10,965 nucleotides of DNA from an uncultured Coriobacteriaceae bacterium (GTDB lineage Bacteria; Actinomycetota; Coriobacteriia; Coriobacteriales; QAMH01), in assembly GCA_902783175.1 (NCBI GenBank), contig CACZQA010000092.1, positions 1 to 10,965 on the forward strand, given 5' to 3'. Positions 119 to 9,693 of the stretch are shown here, in pieces. The notes beneath the pieces are model-generated. The model was not told where the DNA came from and made no database searches. It saw only the letters and a program-made list of their open reading frames with translations. The position numbers and the translations under genes were made by a program. The stretch's first letter is position 1; every line of letters begins with the position of its first letter.

Positions 119-188
119 GATGCGTGGCAGTGCCACCACTTTCGCACGCAACGCAGCAGATGCGTGGCAGTGCCACCCTTTTCGCGCG
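119..188. repeat. Direct repeat with GTGGCAGTGCCAC palindromes, 40-bp period
   Basis: Two copies of a 30-bp segment (119-148 and 159-188) match at 27 of 30 positions, and their first 19 bases are identical. Each copy contains the perfect palindrome GTGGCAGTGCCAC (6-bp arms around one G) at 124-136 and 164-176. The 40-bp period places the two palindromes nearly on the same face of the helix. They could be a double operator or a short intergenic repeat family. No T-run follows, so they are not intrinsic terminators. Confidence 0.75.
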
Positions 189-5346: not shown

Positions 5347-5442
5347 TGACACAAGGGGCCGTGGGTATCGGTTCATTTTGGCACAAGGGGCCGTGGACAT
5401 CGGACCAAAATGGCACGAGGGGCCGTGGGTATCGTGTCATTT
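5347..5442 (+). repeat. 32-bp intergenic repeat, three tandem units
   Basis: Three units start at 5347, 5379 and 5411 with an exact 32-bp period. Each reads TGRCACRA, then GGGGCCGTGG with GTA or ACA, then TCG plus a variable half-site, then TTT or AAA. The third unit (5411-5442) is identical to the first unit at 6621; the middle one diverges most. The array ends 17 bases before the start codon of the MocR gene, so it lies in that gene's promoter or 5' leader, in the divergent region shared with the 5600 gene. Strand is given for the G-rich orientation. Confidence 0.9.
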
Positions 5443-5493
5443 TTTCGCAAGCGCTTCTCGCTTAGAGATACATTCTCGACTGTGAATAATGAC

Positions 5494-5531
5494 GTTGCAA
5501 AAACAACAAAACCAGTTGCAGGGGATGCAAC
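5494..5531. promoter_or_regulatory. TTGCA-N5-TGCAA palindrome with upstream half-site
   Basis: A perfect palindrome, GTTGCAGGGGATGCAAC, occupies 5515-5531. A degenerate partner with an intact left arm (GTTGCA at 5494) is centred 21 bp upstream. The perfect site is centred 30 bases before a possible -10 box, TACATT (5553-5558). Spacing and position repeat the arrangement at 201-266, which suggests one activator serves both the candidate RNA at 272 and the small membrane protein at 5600. It lies in a divergent region and could also affect the MocR gene. Confidence 0.55.
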
Positions 5532-5552
5532 GGCATTTCCTTTTGAGGGGAC

Positions 5553-5558
5553 TACATT
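5553..5558 (+). promoter_or_regulatory. Possible -10 box of the 57-aa protein gene
   Basis: TACATT lies 42 bases before the ATG at 5600. It is a weak match to TATAAT with no proper -35; the palindrome centred at 5523 takes the -35 position, as expected if an activator is needed. It is supported mainly by the parallel with the element at 261. Confidence 0.3.
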
Positions 5559-5599
5559 TGCATCAGACGAAATGAACGCAACAAGGGTTGGAGGTCGTA

Positions 5600-5773
5600 A
5601 TGTTTACTTTGACGATGTGCTTTTTGATGGTGATGGCTCTGTGGTTCGGGCTGACCTACCTGGTCACCCACATCGACCAGATCGACGAGCAGAACCTCGT
5701 CGACTACAAGGTCTACGACCTCGCCGAGCTTCGCAAGGCTCAAGAGGCGAAGGCCGCACGCAAGGCTGCGTAG
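5600..5773 (+). CDS. Small single-TM membrane protein, 57 aa
   Basis: The ATG at 5600 has GGAGG at 5590-5594, five bases away; an in-frame TTG at 5588 overlaps that site and is unlikely to be used. Residues 1-22 form one hydrophobic segment rich in Met, Phe and Leu (MFTLTMCFLMVMALWFGLTY). A charged amphipathic tail of about 35 residues follows (HIDQIDEQNLVDYK..., ending AQEAKAARKAA). It probably sits in the cytoplasmic membrane, with topology unresolved. A strong terminator begins 22 bases after the stop, so the gene is monocistronic. I do not recognise a family. Good ribosome-binding site, clean terminator and host-like codons argue that it is real. Confidence 0.75.
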   Translation: MFTLTMCFLMVMALWFGLTYLVTHIDQIDEQNLVDYKVYDLAELRKAQEAKAARKAA

Positions 5774-5794
5774 CGCGACGTCCCACCCGCACGG

Positions 5795-5836
5795 AAAAGA
5801 CCCCGGAGGCAGAGGTTACCTCCGGGGTCTTTTTTT
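5795..5836 (+). terminator. Strong intrinsic terminator between convergent genes
   Basis: A perfect 15-bp stem is formed by AAAAGACCCCGGAGG (5795-5809) and CCTCCGGGGTCTTTT (5819-5833), with a 9-base loop and an uninterrupted T7 run (5830-5836). The A-rich left arm gives TCTTTT on the minus strand as well. It therefore probably serves both the 57-aa gene and the lipoprotein gene, whose stop is 5 bases away. Confidence 0.93.
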
Positions 5837-5840
5837 GCTG

Positions 5841-6488
5841 CTACTTGTCGAGCCCGAACTGGCTCTTGGAGCTCACCTTACCGTCGGAGAAGGTGATGCT
5901 GCAGTTCGAGGCGATGTTCTCGCCGTCCCACATGTACAGCTTCGACGAGACGCCGGCAATCTTCGTGTCGCTCGAGAGTTCGCCGTCGCCGCCCATGATC
6001 GCCACGACCTCGTCATAGGTCATGCCCGTTTCGACCTGGTTGTACTTGTCCATCGTGGCCTTCGCGGTGGACTGGTCGTTTACGCCGATCTGGCTCTTGT
6101 TCGTGACCTTGCCGTTCTGGAACGTGATGGTCGCGACGCCCCAACCGTCAGATTCCCACTCGTACATCGTCGTCTTGATGCCGCCGATCTCGTTCGTGCT
6201 CTGCTCGGTGCCTTCGGAGCCGATAATGCTCACGACCTGGTCGTAGGACATGCCGTTTTCGATCTTCGCGAACTTGTCCGCGTCGATCTTCGTGCTGTCC
6301 TTCTCCTGCTGAGCGCCTTGCGAGGCAGTGCTGCCCGAGTTGCCGGAGCCGTTCGAGCTGTCGGACTTGTTTCCGGCGCCGCTCGCGCACGACCCGATCA
6401 GTGCGACGAGGACGATGATCACGATGACGATGATGATGAGTTTCTTGTGGCTCTTCTTTGGAGCTGGTGTTTGCTGCGTGTCTGACAT
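5841..6488 (-). CDS. Membrane-anchored protein with two DUF3862-like domains
   Basis: This 215-residue surface protein starts at an ATG (6488) with GAGGGAGAG just upstream. An in-frame ATG at 6650 lies inside the 32-bp repeat and is rejected. Residues 1-16 are polar and Lys-rich, and 17-33 form a strongly hydrophobic Ile/Val helix ending IGSC, so Cys34 may be lipidated, although the lipobox is not ideal. A Ser/Gly/Asn-rich spacer (35-60) leads to two homologous domains of about 65 residues (71-135 and 147-213). Each begins with a GMSYDQVV or GMTYDEVV helix and IIG/IMGG, and ends with ITFQNGKVTNKSQIG or ITFSDGKVSSKSQFG. This is the DUF3862/SmpA-OmlA (BLIP-like) fold seen in Gram-positive lipoproteins; its ligand is unknown. 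Confidence 0.85.
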   Translation of the reverse strand: MSDTQQTPAPKKSHKKLIIIVIVIIVLVALIGSCASGAGNKSDSSNGSGNSGSTASQGAQQEKDSTKIDADKFAKIENGMSYDQVVSIIGSEGTEQSTNEIGGIKTTMYEWESDGWGVATITFQNGKVTNKSQIGVNDQSTAKATMDKYNQVETGMTYDEVVAIMGGDGELSSDTKIAGVSSKLYMWDGENIASNCSITFSDGKVSSKSQFGLDK

Positions 6489-6515
6489 GGACTCTCCCTC
6501 GCTTGCTTCATCCCG

Positions 6516-6532
6516 GCCAGGCGGTGCCTGGC
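6516..6532. promoter_or_regulatory. Palindrome GCCAGGC-GGT-GCCTGGC at the lipoprotein start site
   Basis: A perfect 7-bp inverted repeat with a 3-base centre lies between the -10 box (6534-6539) and the start codon at 6488, covering the expected transcription start near 6527. It could be an operator for a repressor or a 5' stabilising hairpin. No T-run follows. Confidence 0.45.
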
Positions 6533-6533
6533 G

Positions 6534-6562
6534 ATTATCTATTGCGCGGACAATTTTTTCAG
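6534..6562 (-). promoter_or_regulatory. Promoter of the DUF3862-like gene
   Basis: On the minus strand CTGAAA (6562-6557) and GATAAT (6539-6534) are 17 bases apart, matching four and five positions of the sigma-70 boxes. The start would be near 6527, giving a leader of about 40 bases. The region is the only AT-rich patch upstream of the gene. Confidence 0.5.
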
Positions 6563-6620
6563 AGCGGGAGGGCGATTTCCTCAGCTGCCAGCTAAGCCCG
6601 AGAGCGTGCGCCGCCAAAAG

Positions 6621-6684
6621 TGGCACGAGGGGCCGTGGGTATCGTGTCATTTTGAACCGAGGGGCCGTGGGTATCGTCTCAAAA
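6621..6684 (+). repeat. 32-bp intergenic repeat, two tandem units
   Basis: Units at 6621-6652 and 6653-6684 keep the exact 32-bp period. The first is the canonical form and is identical to the unit at 5411. The second varies only in its half-sites (TGAACCGA, TCGTCTCA) and ends AAAA instead of TTT. A degenerate continuation, TGAGGAATCGTGTCTCA, follows at 6685-6701. The array lies between the divergent lipoprotein promoter and the gene at 6749, ending about 50-65 bases before the start of the latter. Confidence 0.9.
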
Positions 6685-6748
6685 TGAGGAATCGTGTCTC
6701 AGGGTGCAGGTACACTGCTACACGAGGAATATGGATGGAAAGGCACGG

Positions 6749-7396
6749 ATGGCTCAGAAGACTATCGTAAGAAGCGAATACGAGTACCGTGGTGCCCGAT
6801 GGGCCGAGACGTCGGGCGGGGACCGCGGCCTTGCGTGCCAGGACGAGCGCATGGGCGCGTGGTTCTTCCGCCATGCGTTTGGCGAAGGCGGAGACGGTGA
6901 GAAGCTCGCCGCGCCACCGGCACGGTTCTTGTCGCCAGCCACCACCGACGCGCAGAGGCGCCGCGTGCTGGAGCGTTTCAAGCAGCTCACGATCGCGTGC
7001 ACGTGGGAAGAGCCCGAATCCAGCTTCCGTCTCAGCTTTGCGCGCAACAGGTTTGGCGCGCACTGCGTTGGCTACCTCGGGCTGCGGCGCAAGGTAGAGT
7101 CGGCGGATCCCGACTTCAGCATGGTCGGCTCCGAGGCGCGCGCGTTTGCCCGCGAGCTTGTGGAAGAGGAGCTGTGGCGGCTTTCCGGCGTCTACTCGCC
7201 CGCTCAAGCGAGCGCAGGCGACTGCGGGTCGTGGCTGCTGATGGCAACCGATGGCGTGCGCTGCTTTCTCGCGCAGGGGGAAGACGCATGGCCGCGCGAG
7301 CTGGAGGGGCTGTGTCGCTCCCTTGAGCGCCATGGCTTTCCTTGGCTCATGAACCCCTTCGGCGAGCTTGGCGCTCCAACGGCGGAGCCCTTCTAA
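6749..7396 (+). CDS. Hypothetical protein, 215 aa
   Basis: The ATG at 6749 is preferred because GGAAAGG lies five bases upstream. An in-frame ATG at 6731, with GAGGA only two bases away, and a GTG at 6704 are alternatives. The product is soluble, Arg- and Trp-rich, with no signal peptide or membrane helix. Features include ACTWEEPESSFRLSFARNRFG (about 82-102) as strand-like sequence, a helical stretch ARAFARELVEEELWRL, and WLLMATDGVRCFL, which looks like a core beta-hairpin. I do not recognise the family. No good promoter is visible between the tandem repeats and the gene, so the repeats may contribute to its expression. Confidence 0.75.
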   Translation: MAQKTIVRSEYEYRGARWAETSGGDRGLACQDERMGAWFFRHAFGEGGDGEKLAAPPARFLSPATTDAQRRRVLERFKQLTIACTWEEPESSFRLSFARNRFGAHCVGYLGLRRKVESADPDFSMVGSEARAFARELVEEELWRLSGVYSPAQASAGDCGSWLLMATDGVRCFLAQGEDAWPRELEGLCRSLERHGFPWLMNPFGELGAPTAEPF

Positions 7397-7426
7397 TATG
7401 CAAAAAGCATAAGCCGAACTTTTTTT
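7397..7426 (+). terminator. Weak terminator candidate after the 6749 gene
   Basis: TATGC-AAAAA-GCATA (7397-7411) is a 5-bp hairpin, and a T7 run starts 9 bases later (7420-7426); AAAAAG and CTTTTT could also pair. Both are weak, so readthrough into the 48-aa gene is possible. Confidence 0.3.
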
Positions 7427-7437
7427 AATTGGGCACT

Positions 7438-7465
7438 TTGCAACATTCTGCAAATCACATATAGT
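7438..7465 (+). promoter_or_regulatory. Promoter of the 48-aa gene with overlapping palindrome
   Basis: TTGCAA (7438-7443) and TATAGT (7460-7465) are 16 bases apart, a near-consensus sigma-70 promoter. The -35 box is the left arm of TTTGCA-N6-TGCAAA (7437-7454), a dyad resembling the TTGCA-N5-TGCAA sites elsewhere but with one extra spacer base. In this position a bound protein would block rather than activate. Transcription should start near 7472. Confidence 0.7.
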
Positions 7466-7472
7466 TCGAGTG

Positions 7473-7493
7473 CTGCATTGATTGGCAATGCAG
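7473..7493 (+). promoter_or_regulatory. 5'-terminal hairpin CTGCATTG-N5-CAATGCAG
   Basis: A perfect 8-bp inverted repeat begins at the predicted first transcribed bases of the 48-aa gene's mRNA. A stem at the extreme 5' end commonly protects messages from decay; as DNA it could also be an operator. It lies 13 bases before the ribosome-binding region, so it should not block translation. Confidence 0.5.
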
Positions 7494-7521
7494 GATTTCC
7501 ATTAGAGAGGAAAAGAACGAC

Positions 7522-7668
7522 ATGGCAGTCAACGTTGACCAGATCATCAACAACCACAACACCCGCATGAACCAGATCGAGATCGCCGAGAAGGAGACCG
7601 ACAACGTCTTCGTCACCGCTTGGGAAGCTGAGCTCAAGAACAGCCTCGCCAACCAGCCGACCGACTAG
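7522..7668 (+). CDS. Microprotein of 48 aa, unknown function
   Basis: The gene begins at ATG 7522, with AGAGAGGAAAAG as ribosome-binding region, and ends at TAG 7666-7668. The 48 residues start MAVNVDQIINNHNTRMNQ and end NSLANQPTD. They are hydrophilic, Asn- and Glu-rich, with no cysteines, signal or membrane segment, and probably form one or two amphipathic helices. Nearly every codon is the C- or G-ending form expected of a highly expressed gene (AAC, ATC, GAC, GAG, CTC). It has its own promoter at 7438 and terminator at 7694, so it is monocistronic. I do not recognise a family. The complete gene architecture makes a chance open frame unlikely. Confidence 0.8.
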   Translation: MAVNVDQIINNHNTRMNQIEIAEKETDNVFVTAWEAELKNSLANQPTD

Positions 7669-7693
7669 TTCTTCGCAACATAGCAAGTGTTGC

Positions 7694-7728
7694 AAAAGGC
7701 CGTTGCTCCTTCGGGCAGCGGCCTTTTT
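7694..7728 (+). terminator. Intrinsic terminator of the 48-aa gene
   Basis: AAAAGGCCGTTGC (7694-7706) pairs with GCAGCGGCCTTTT (7715-7727) with one G-U pair, an 8-base loop and a T5 tract. It lies 25 bases after the stop. The A-run on the left arm gives TTTT on the minus strand too, so it may help stop transcription arriving from the DUF4177-like gene. Confidence 0.9.
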
Positions 7729-7737
7729 CATGTCTTT

Positions 7738-7792
7738 CAGAAAAACGATGCGGCGGGACCACTATCTTCTGGACGAAAGCCCCGTCCCACCG
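7738..7792 (-). terminator. Probable terminator of the minus-strand DUF4177/permease unit
   Basis: Read on the minus strand, CGGTGGGAC (7792-7784) pairs with GTCCCGCCG (7759-7751) with one G-U pair, and TTTTT follows four bases later (7745-7741). The 24-base loop may fold further. It lies about 50 bases after the stop of the DUF4177-like gene. Confidence 0.55.
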
Positions 7793-7845
7793 TCATGCAC
7801 TTTCTGCGCCCGGGCACTGCGGCGTTTCTTGTCGCCAGCGCGTCT

Positions 7846-8106
7846 TCAGTCGATTCGCTCGAACACGAGGTTGCACACCGTGCGGTCGCCGCCGCCAAAG
7901 CCCGCAGAGTTCGCGGTCGACTGCGCGAACGTGTGCAGGCGGTAGCCCTGCGCGTACTGCTCGTTGCAAAGGTCTTCGATCTCGCGGAAGTTCTTCGAGC
8001 CCTTGCCGACGAACTTTTCCCTCAGCACGATCTGCATCACCCGGTACTTGCCGTTGCTGTAGCTGATCTTGCCCTCTTCGTCGTTGAACGCGTCCATGAT
8101 TCCCAT
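7846..8106 (-). CDS. DUF4177-like small protein, 86 aa
   Basis: Residues 20-85 follow the DUF4177 pattern: a first strand KYRVMQIVLREKF, a helix NFREIEDLCNEQYAQGYRLHTF that places the hallmark YAQGYRL, and a closing strand TVCNLVFERI. Proteins of this family are small alpha/beta units of unknown function, often found as accessory genes. Start choice: AGAGAGG lies 8 bases before the ATG at 8106 but only 2 before the ATG at 8112, so 8106 is preferred. An in-frame ATG at 8157 falls in the 32-bp repeat and is rejected. The gene follows the amino-acid permease; the gap consists almost entirely of two repeat units plus this ribosome-binding site. Confidence 0.75.
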   Translation of the reverse strand: MGIMDAFNDEEGKISYSNGKYRVMQIVLREKFVGKGSKNFREIEDLCNEQYAQGYRLHTFAQSTANSAGFGGGDRTVCNLVFERID

Positions 8107-8124
8107 GTGCATGTCCTCTCTCTC

Positions 8125-8188
8125 GTATGGCACGATACCCACGGCCCCTCGTGTCATTTTGAAACGATACCCACGGCCCCTCGTGCCA
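8125..8188 (-). repeat. 32-bp intergenic repeat, two tandem units
   Basis: On the minus strand the units run 8188-8157 and 8156-8125, again at an exact 32-bp period, with the full core GGGGCCGTGGGTA in both. The half-sites are TGGCACGA/TCGTTTCA and TGACACGA/TCGTGCCA. The array starts 2 bases after the permease stop codon and ends just before the AGAGAGG site of the DUF4177-like gene, so it fills the intergenic space and would be transcribed if the two genes are read through. Confidence 0.9.
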
Positions 8189-8190
8189 GT

Positions 8191-9693
8191 TTAGACGACG
8201 AGGTAGGGGAAGGCGAAGAGCGCGAGCGCGAGCACGCAGGCGATGCCCACGACGACCTTCCAGACCAGGTACTCCCGGTCCATCTTGGCGCGCTCCTCGG
8301 CTGGCGGCTCGTCGTTGGCGCCCGATGCGGCCAGGTCGAGCGTGAACTCGCCCTGCTTGCCGTAGACCTTGTAGCAGATCGCGTACACGACCAGCGCGAT
8401 CGCACACCAGATGATCCCCGTCGTAAAGGCGTCGGGCTCGAGCTGCGTCATCATCAGGATGTAGATGACGGCACTCACCGGCGCGCCAATCTTGATGCCA
8501 GGAGCCTTGTACGCGCGCTTGAGCTCGGGGAAGCGCTGGCGCAGGAAGAGCGCCGCGATGATGCCGATCACGTAGTAGAACAGGTCGGCGAACAGCGAGA
8601 GGTTCGCGATGTAGTCGAGCGAGTTGGTGAGGATCAAGACGATCGACACGACGCCGAGGGTGATGACGGAGACATAGGGCGTGCTAAAGCGCTTGCTCGT
8701 CTTCGCGAATACCTTGGGCACGGCGCCGTCGCGCGCCATGACGAACAGGTAGCGGCCGGTCGTTGCCACGCTCGCGTTGAGGGTCGAGAAGTCGCCGCCC
8801 AGCGAGATGCCGATGCACAGCAAAATGAGCGGGAAGCCCATGATGCCGGCGGACATCATCGCCTGGGCAAACGGCGCGTCGGCGTCGGAGAGCATCGCCA
8901 TCGAGTCGACGGGCGTGATGCCGACGAGGAACCACTGGAACAGCGCGTTGACCGCGAACACGACAAACGGGGTCAGAAACATCGCGCGCGGGATGTTGAC
9001 GTGCGGGTACTTGATTTCCTCGCCCATCGAGACGGCCGACTCGAACCCCGCGAAGCACCACCAGATCATGCACATCGCGGCAAAGAACGAGAGGGGATTG
9101 CTCGCGTCGATGAAGTCGGGCGTCGTGACGAAGGTCGGCAGGCTCACGTTGGGGATCATCGTCAAAAACCAGATCGCGGCAACTCCCCAGAAGAAGAACA
9201 TCGCCGCGTTCTGCACGCGCCCCGAGACCTCGACCCCGAACACGTTGACCACGGTGAACCCGGCGACGACGATTGCCGCGAGGATGCCGTCGGAGATGGG
9301 CAGCTCTATGCCGAGTGCGAGGAAGATGGTCTTGAAGTAATAACTGAATGCAAGTGCCTCTCCGCCGTTGACCGCGACGAGCGAGATGATGAAGTTCCAG
9401 CCCGCGAGTACGCCCGCCCAGCGCCCGATGCCCATCGATGCAAACTGGTAGGTGCCGCCGGCGTAGGGGAGCGACGCGCCCATCTCGGCGTAGAGCAGCG
9501 CGGGGTAGATGCTCACGGCCAGCGCGAGGAGCGTCGCGAAGATAACGAACGGGCCGAGGTCGCCTACGACGTTCGAGCCCGTCGTGAACAAGCCGACGCC
9601 GATGACCGAGCCTGCTGCGACGGTGACGGCTTCTCGCATACCGAACTTGCGTTTGAGCTGGCCTTTTCCAACTATGCCTTCGCCCTGTGCCAT
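8191..9693 (-). CDS. APC-family amino-acid permease
   Basis: This 500-residue integral membrane transporter of the amino acid-polyamine-organocation superfamily should exchange or import amino acids or amines. The TM1 signature GSVIGVGLF (28-36), which forms part of the substrate site in this superfamily, is intact. GASLPYAGGTYQFAS (TM2-TM3 region) and CFAGFESAVSMGEEIKYPHVNIPRA (TM6 to the loop, with the conserved acidic pair) are typical. About 12 helices are followed by a hydrophilic segment (DLAASGANDEPPAEERAK) and an extra C-terminal hydrophobic helix (about 478-500). The ATG at 9693 has GAGAGG 7 bases upstream. The substrate is unknown; no metabolic enzyme gene is adjacent to suggest one. 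The weak promoter region 9694-9800 contains a direct repeat CTACAG and a GCAAG/CTTGC dyad on the minus strand. Confidence 0.92.
   Translation of the reverse strand: MAQGEGIVGKGQLKRKFGMREAVTVAAGSVIGVGLFTTGSNVVGDLGPFVIFATLLALAVSIYPALLYAEMGASLPYAGGTYQFASMGIGRWAGVLAGWNFIISLVAVNGGEALAFSYYFKTIFLALGIELPISDGILAAIVVAGFTVVNVFGVEVSGRVQNAAMFFFWGVAAIWFLTMIPNVSLPTFVTTPDFIDASNPLSFFAAMCMIWWCFAGFESAVSMGEEIKYPHVNIPRAMFLTPFVVFAVNALFQWFLVGITPVDSMAMLSDADAPFAQAMMSAGIMGFPLILLCIGISLGGDFSTLNASVATTGRYLFVMARDGAVPKVFAKTSKRFSTPYVSVITLGVVSIVLILTNSLDYIANLSLFADLFYYVIGIIAALFLRQRFPELKRAYKAPGIKIGAPVSAVIYILMMTQLEPDAFTTGIIWCAIALVVYAICYKVYGKQGEFTLDLAASGANDEPPAEERAKMDREYLVWKVVVGIACVLALALFAFPYLVV

Follow-up and report, generated by a model that had tools for sequence, protein, structure and literature searches.

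A REP-like family of intergenic palindromic repeats and the Y1 transposase gene that it brackets in an uncultured Coriobacteriaceae bacterium

Contig CACZQA010000092.1 of an uncultured Coriobacteriaceae bacterium (assembly GCA_902783175.1; the contig, 10,965 nucleotides long, was analysed whole and is hereafter called the window) carries seven copies of a 29-bp repeat, here termed T1, which is dispersed between genes throughout the draft genome and brackets a gene for a Y1/HUH tyrosine transposase. T1 is a repeat family with its own transposase, similar to repetitive extragenic palindromes (REPs) and closest to the TIRYT/TIRtron type, in which Y1 enzymes accompany terminal inverted repeats (TIRs); it is unlike the classical GT[AG]G REP. 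We base this assignment on the bracketed gene, on the repeats that flank related genes across the order, on the joint variation of enzyme and repeat, and on a fold match to the REP-associated transposase structure 4er8. Very probably, T1 is a non-autonomous mobile repeat of the REP/TIR kind whose units form hairpins and owe their spread to one HUH/Y1 enzyme of the TIRYT or REP-associated tyrosine transposase (RAYT) type.

T1 units in the window

Each T1 unit consists of an 8-nt arm, a 13-nt core (GGGGCCGTGGGTA) and a second 8-nt arm. The seven units lie at three places (three at 5347-5439, two at 6621-6681 and two on the other strand at 8188-8128), as follows:

5347..5375, forward strand: T1 unit 1 of the triple (TGACACAA / GGGGCCGTGGGTA / TCGGTTCA)
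5379..5407, forward strand: T1 unit 2 of the triple (TGGCACAA / GGGGCCGTGGACA / TCGGACCA), with a diverged core
5411..5439, forward strand: T1 unit 3 of the triple (TGGCACGA / core / TCGTGTCA), followed by TTTT; the cluster lies between divergent genes
6621..6649, forward strand: first T1 unit of a direct pair; the pair lies between divergent genes
6653..6681, forward strand: T1 unit 2 of the same direct pair; the outer arms of the pair are unmatched
8160..8188, reverse strand: first T1 unit of a direct pair that starts 2 nt past a stop codon (gene ending at 8191)
8128..8156, reverse strand: T1 unit 2 of the same direct pair; outer arms matched

The exact 16-mer GGGGCCGTGGGTATCG is found in six of the seven units, the seventh having two mismatches, and in shuffled windows 0.14 matches are expected at up to three mismatches (seven were reached in 0 of 200 shuffles). 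An earlier note, made from the letters of the window alone, had described seven copies at three loci with a 32-bp period; all seven are present, and at each of the three places the period resolves into a 29-bp unit plus a 3-bp spacer. It had also placed every copy between genes, and this agrees with our gene positions: two clusters lie between divergent genes, while the third starts 2 nt beyond a stop codon, that of a gene ending at 8191 which reads like a putative amino-acid permease. Rfam gave no matches at the gathering threshold within the window.

Dispersal across the genome

The genome (a 1.6-Mb draft of 327 contigs, about 83% complete, of which the window is one contig) contains 46 exact copies of the 16-mer, and its reversed control none. 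Among the matches listed at up to three mismatches there are at least four further single-mismatch copies as well as the diverged one of the window, followed by chance-like matches; the reversed control gives 32 hits at up to three mismatches, and matches with three mismatches were left out of use. A regular expression recovered 51 T1 units; these form 35 clusters, of which 20 are single, 14 double and one triple. The core hardly varies, being the same in 47 of the 51 units, and the arms are drawn from a small set, namely TGGCACGA, TGACACGA, TGAACCGA, TGAGACGA and five rarer forms, much as the earlier note had contrasted an almost constant core with variable half-sites. The spacer measures 3 nt at 15 of 16 junctions, which also upholds the note's dismissal of a CRISPR array, and the remaining junction of 47 nt has a second unit type (T2, described below) in between. 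Twelve of the 15 multi-unit clusters are direct and three are inverted pairs. The element is therefore genome-wide, as had been proposed: exact copies recur, the period holds, and no cluster lies within a called gene.

Contig edges carry six of the 35 clusters, so the true copy number is probably higher, and T1-like units probably contribute to the breaks in draft assemblies of such genomes. A search of IMG/VR with the exact 16-mer returned nine contigs, none with arms, and these were taken as chance; a PLSDB search with an 82-bp stretch gave no match.

A Y1 transposase gene bracketed by T1

Searching the genome with the Y1_Tnp profile (PF01797) identified one gene:

G000, contig C113, L045 2993..3745, reverse strand: Y1/HUH (IS200-like) transposase of 250 aa, found with the Y1_Tnp profile

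Two T1 units follow it downstream, the arm of the nearer one supplying the TGA stop codon, and a T1 and a T2 unit stand upstream, inverted relative to the downstream T1 units. The earlier note had named a REP-associated transposase as the partner to look for, and a single Y1 gene, bracketed by the repeats and with relatives across the order, is what we found.

The protein matches Y1_Tnp in Pfam (E 1.4e-10) and, weakly, a C-terminal helix-turn-helix (HTH) domain (HTH_23, E 0.049), which reaches E 0.01 in two of 33 aligned members. The AlphaFold2 model (pLDDT 91.6, pTM 0.72) places helices at residues 213-225, 230-237 and 241-249 of the C-terminal region. Its best fold match in the PDB is 4er8 (E 9.2e-7), the REP-associated tyrosine transposase of E. 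coli (TnpA_REP) with a REP hairpin, followed by transposases of the IS200/IS605 type. A sequence-profile search likewise ranked 4er8 first, although weakly (E 0.014), and phmmer with the single transposase against the PDB gave no matches up to E 1. None of the 33 aligned sequences (our own included) departs from H60, H62 or Y119, residues that, judging by the alignment with 4er8 and by what is known of the family, are probably catalytic. Of the 264 homologues, 120 were listed, and a minority of these carry PF08299, PF13384 or PF13518 (Bac_DnaA_C, HTH_23 and HTH_28). The protein cluster P0001, 99% identical, comprises 132 member sequences.

Enzymes and flanking repeats in the order

At the family level the enzyme occurs in three of seven genomes (own included) and the exact unit in our genome only, the exact core being absent from all six other genomes. 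At the order level, the enzyme or a relative is present in 212 of 395 genomes, own included (E 1e-10). At 12 named loci (L052-L062, L065), palindromic units were seen by reading to flank each gene on both sides in inverted orientation, and their sequences differ between lineages (e.g., TGACAAGGGGACAGGTCACTTGTCA, TGAACAGGGGACGGGTTAGGTGTTCA, TGTACAGGGGTCAGGTTATTGTACA). Exact inverted repeats of at least 14 nt flank the enzyme gene at 38 of 45 loci, against 0 of 39 shifted windows of the same loci. For this comparison the flanks spanned 450 bases upstream and 200 bases downstream; the 45 loci include our own, four seen twice (L052/L109, L054/L116, L055/L117, L061/L090) and the near-twins L058/L059 and L102/L103, and leave out the non-Coriobacterial relatives (L063, L064, L066-L088). 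Enzyme and repeat vary jointly: their similarities are correlated over 32 loci (Mantel r 0.55, reached in 0 of 5000 permutations), the set that remained once eight loci were removed by hand together with the remaining ones below 14 nt.

A generic GGGGWCR-type unit pattern matched 33 of the 395 order genomes and its reversed control none; one genome contains as many as 104 copies. Most enzyme-bearing genomes, our own among them, lie outside this pattern, their repeats being different or untested. The enzyme is present in 28 of the 33 generic-unit genomes versus 212 of 395 overall (Fisher p 1e-4, kinship ignored). In stretches from seven of these genomes the units stand singly, as inverted pairs and as direct pairs. 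One genome, G244 (a draft 85% complete), has 17 copies of the relatives' unit (L148-L150) and no detected enzyme; it may hold an orphan family, or its enzyme may have been lost or be absent from the draft.

Arm pairing and associated units

One T1 unit with matched arms has an 8-bp stem, and its predicted DNA hairpin stands out on both strands (z -3.0 and -3.8). As pairing pooled over all units is not significant (see below), our claim of arm matching is restricted to the split by position. Among single units, the arms are fully paired (wobble allowed) in 18 of 20. In multimers (one multi-unit cluster, L038, was skipped) a unit's own arms pair in 13 of 29 units, the outermost arms in 11 of 14 clusters and the neighbours at inner junctions in two of 15 cases (outer vs inner, Fisher p 7e-4); the arm pair that persists in a T1 multimer is the one bounding the whole multimer.

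This outermost-arm pattern is limited to T1 multimers. Fourteen of the 20 'single' clusters precede a T2 unit, and in 13 of these 14 the T1 unit's own arms are matched; in none of the 14 does an arm behind T2 pair fully with the T1 left arm, and 8-mers with at least seven of eight pairs to that arm occur behind T2 in six of 14, compared with 13.5% in random stretches. The T2 unit, with core GGGACACCCCGRC, forms a strong predicted hairpin in its full form. Its exact core has 10 matches, each 33 nt behind a T1 core; allowing one mismatch adds seven, of which one stands next to T1 (three for the reversed control). A 300-bp composite on contig C55 (L046 5442-5741) is bounded by T1 units at both ends, in inverted orientation, and its middle recurs, whole or in part, on three other contigs.

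Two side observations concern these elements. On L037, L038, L039 and L003 the other strand of the T2 units has GGGACAGGTC, resembling the relatives' GGGGACAGGTC units. A third repeat, TGACARACCGG (12 copies on five contigs, reversed control 0), forms the middle of the non-coding composite (L046 5527-5642) and also that of comparable, in part incomplete, stretches on three further contigs (L034, L041 and L033).

Placement relative to genes and stop codons

No T1 cluster (0 of 35) lies inside a called gene, in sequence that our own simple gene finder called 84% coding ('inside' meaning at least 60% overlap, with overlaps of 3-15 nt with gene ends occurring). Of the clusters, 22 stand between same-strand genes, six between divergent and one between convergent genes, and six at contig edges. 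Half of the scored clusters that face a gene end (11 of 22) lie within 3 nt of its stop codon, where uniform placement in the gaps predicts 2.2, and 11 was reached in 0 of 100,000 simulations; nine of these 11 keep the direction of the gene and two oppose it. At four of the 11 the cluster sits at position -3, the arm's own TGA being the stop codon, a result that any gene reading into a unit would yield; without these four the count is seven of 22. The test used 28 of the 35 clusters, of which the six divergent ones went unscored; five edge clusters (L041, L042, L043, L003, L004) and two clusters that were the second of a gap (L033:2128, L046:5713) had been dropped. Gene ends were those called by our gene finder. 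Three gene starts (6723, 8108 and, for the transposase, 3745) were entered by hand, as was a guessed probability of 0.1 for L035; these entries left stop codon positions unaltered and changed the gap at 8128 and hence its expectation.

In a separate check based on open reading frames (ORFs), own T1 units lay near stops at 13 of 46 left and eight of 44 right edges and the relatives' units at five of 39 left and seven of 37 right edges, with random positions (coding DNA included) giving 1.6% and 1.4%. The same check on a 40-bp repeat family of this genome gave 0 of 67 and 0 of 46 (both strands of a palindrome being scored, with guessed edges).

This second dispersed family is a palindrome, GTGGCASTGCCAC, within a larger palindrome, and is found at window positions 119-188 (two copies) and on L044, L049 and L164-L179. 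At the loci examined, 25 of its 26 neighbour spacings below 200 bp conform to a 40-bp period; exact matches to its CGTGGCAGTGCCAC number 30 in the whole genome (none for the reversed control), no linked enzyme was seen, and in the ORF-based check it stays away from stop codons. The window further holds intergenic TTGCA...TGCAA motifs at 199-239, 5492-5532 and 7437-7455, the latter two upstream of small-protein genes (5627-5773 and 7522-7668, respectively). The stretches 199-239 and 5492-5532 are 76% alike, and the motifs are a possible operator.

Alternative explanations

The earlier note had offered three candidates (a global regulator array, a mobile short repeat and an RNA processing element), and the evidence separates them. 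As an intrinsic terminator or mRNA 3'-end element, T1 would be a hairpin, often with TTTT, standing behind stop codons and mostly directed with the gene. The orientation of the stop-abutting clusters (nine with the gene, two against) and the RNA folding of one window unit, better than its shuffles (z -3.8), speak for this; yet six of the 35 clusters lie between divergent genes, the 8-bp stem is joined to a large loop and a short T run, and a simple terminator scan yields no more than partial inner stems, in two of the seven window copies, where they run on the strand opposite that of the unit. A terminator also leaves unexplained why T1 brackets the transposase and varies jointly with it, and we regard it as very unlikely to be the primary nature of T1. 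What survives of the RNA proposal is a possible side effect (a weak terminator, or an mRNA 3' end), which does not account for the copies between divergent genes. Slightly less probable still is an array for a global DNA-binding regulator, with the arms as half-sites and the 32-bp period setting proteins on one face of the helix. The constant period, the symmetric arms and the position of two of the three window clusters between divergent genes would suit it, but more than half of the clusters (20 of 35) consist of one T1 unit, three of 15 multi-unit clusters are inverted pairs, the asymmetric core and not the arms is the most constant part, and the exact core is missing from all six other family genomes. 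T1 units moreover bracket the transposase gene, and half of the scored clusters abut stop codons; the regulator proposal is not supported. Least probable, by a small margin, are passive leftovers of another transposon, resembling miniature inverted-repeat transposable elements, for which the Y1 gene would be merely one insertion site. The non-coding composite bounded by T1 units and the relatives' unit in five of 33 genomes without the enzyme fit such leftovers. Against them speak the joint variation of enzyme and repeat and the inverted repeats on both sides of the enzyme gene, seen at 38 of 45 loci and in none of the 39 shifted windows. The mobile short repeat is thus the candidate that gained ground, through the bracketed transposase, the flanked loci, the joint variation and the fold match.

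Several observations nonetheless weigh against T1 as a repeat moved by this enzyme. The transposase scores 54.9 bits with the NCBIfam REP_Tyr_transpos model, for which the cut-off is 80; the classical GT[AG]G is found at the 5' foot of 0 of 51 T1 units on either strand, and the own core, GGGGCCGT, lies outside GGGGWSAS, a motif of some TIRs. Over all 51 units, 33 have paired arms versus 29.4 with shuffled arms (33 being reached in 672 of 10,000 shuffles). Seven of the 45 enzyme loci (L091, L092, L093, L101, L106, L110, L111) are without 14-nt flanking repeats, 82 of 1980 cross-locus upstream/downstream pairings share words of at least 14 nt (as kin with similar repeats would give), and five of the 33 generic-unit genomes (G004, G244, G267, G298, G311) carry the unit without the enzyme. 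Neither transposition nor excision was observed, nor any presence/absence difference between strains, the genus being represented by one genome. Finally, a second transposase may have been missed in our genome, because the draft is incomplete and fragmented.

Relation to known systems

The T1 system most resembles TIRYT/TIRtrons together with subclass 2.1 of TnpA_Y1. The name TIRYT was given to Y1 enzymes whose genes lie between inverted repeats, some of which carry GGGGWSAS (Di Nocera 2013, PMC3733652); certain TIRs make up families of moderate abundance that include dimers and clusters, and some overlap the 3' end of the gene (PMC3733652). Here too inverted repeats belonging to one family lie on both sides of the Y1 gene, as seen also at 38 of 45 loci and in the dispersed copies of other genomes. 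The relatives' GGGGACAG fits GGGGWSAS, a motif given for some TIRs only (PMC3733652), and our own core does not. T1 differs by its own core (GGGGCCGT), the placing of 13-nt cores between few arm types, and direct multimers with a fixed 3-nt spacer. The main text of PMC3733652 makes no mention of Actinobacteria, Coriobacter, Eggerthella, Slackia or Olsenella.

TIRYTs probably correspond to TnpA_Y1 subclass 2.1, which has a C-terminal HTH (Quentin 2018, PMC6006769) and near whose genes, according to the same source, no REP-like sequences were found. Our enzyme, which may belong to subclass 2.1, is similar in joining a Y1 core to a C-terminal region modelled as helices by AlphaFold2, and PF08299, PF13384 or PF13518 occurs in a minority of the listed homologues; it differs in that palindromic dispersed repeats flank the genes. 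With the REP/RAYT REPtrons of E. coli and other bacteria (PMC8266576), T1 shares an HUH/Y1 enzyme, bracketing repeats, dispersed intergenic hairpins and the fold, and differs from them in the extra C-terminal enzyme region, the 8-bp stem and the 13-nt core of its units. T1 does not fit the REPIN, in which an inverted pair is the mobile unit: 12 of the 15 multi-unit clusters are direct. The earlier note was right, narrowly taken, that T1 does not fit a classical REP pair, there being no GT[AG]G foot and mostly direct pairs; the system is nonetheless REP-like.

Our literature search, with most subscription papers and bioRxiv outside its scope, found no RAYT/REP in Actinobacteria and no Coriobacter tyrosine transposase. 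Matches for Eggerthella with RAYT and for Collinsella with REP are apparently unrelated, judging from their listings, and PMC8040213, in the portion available, contains no link between Collinsella and REP. Within the literature searched, the REP/TIR-type system is new for this lineage; it may be described elsewhere.

Proposed mechanism

By analogy with the IS200/IS605 and TnpA_REP families, we infer that T1 units move and that the enzyme binds, cuts and joins them. It would bind one strand of T1 as a hairpin, for instance on the lagging-strand template, cut the foot of the hairpin with its catalytic tyrosine and join the unit elsewhere; the 3-nt spacer, which stays constant in direct as in inverted pairs, may be the mark of a fixed cutting site. 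The moving entity could be a single T1 unit, two paired ones or the 300-bp composite with T1 ends; T1, T2 and the composite would then be single-stranded elements whose ends the enzyme recognises. Copies would persist mainly where harm is slight, often just past stop codons.

A more specific and, taken as a whole, rather improbable proposal is that in T1 multimers the enzyme reads no arms but the outermost, of whichever type, and moves the intervening DNA (one unit, two units or the composite) as one single-stranded element, that it prefers sites behind stops, and that about half of Coriobacteriales carry such repeat-specific systems. Under it, the TGA of an incoming arm inserted behind a stop codon would become, or just follow, the stop of the target gene. 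Two findings weaken the reading of outermost arms: T1 units before T2 are self-matched (13 of 14), and full pairing of the T1 left arm with an arm behind T2 is seen in 0 of 14 cases.

Significance

These results place a REP/TIR-type repeat system, with a co-varying enzyme, in an order for which the papers searched describe none. Three of its features stand out: the matched outermost arms of multimers, the fixed 3-nt spacing and the closeness to stop codons. If the enzymes belong to subclass 2.1, they are evidence against the reported lack of REP-like partners in that subclass. Some 30 distinct natural pairs of enzyme and repeat (32 loci) are at hand for studying how a Y1 enzyme recognises its hairpin without the GT[AG]G guide.

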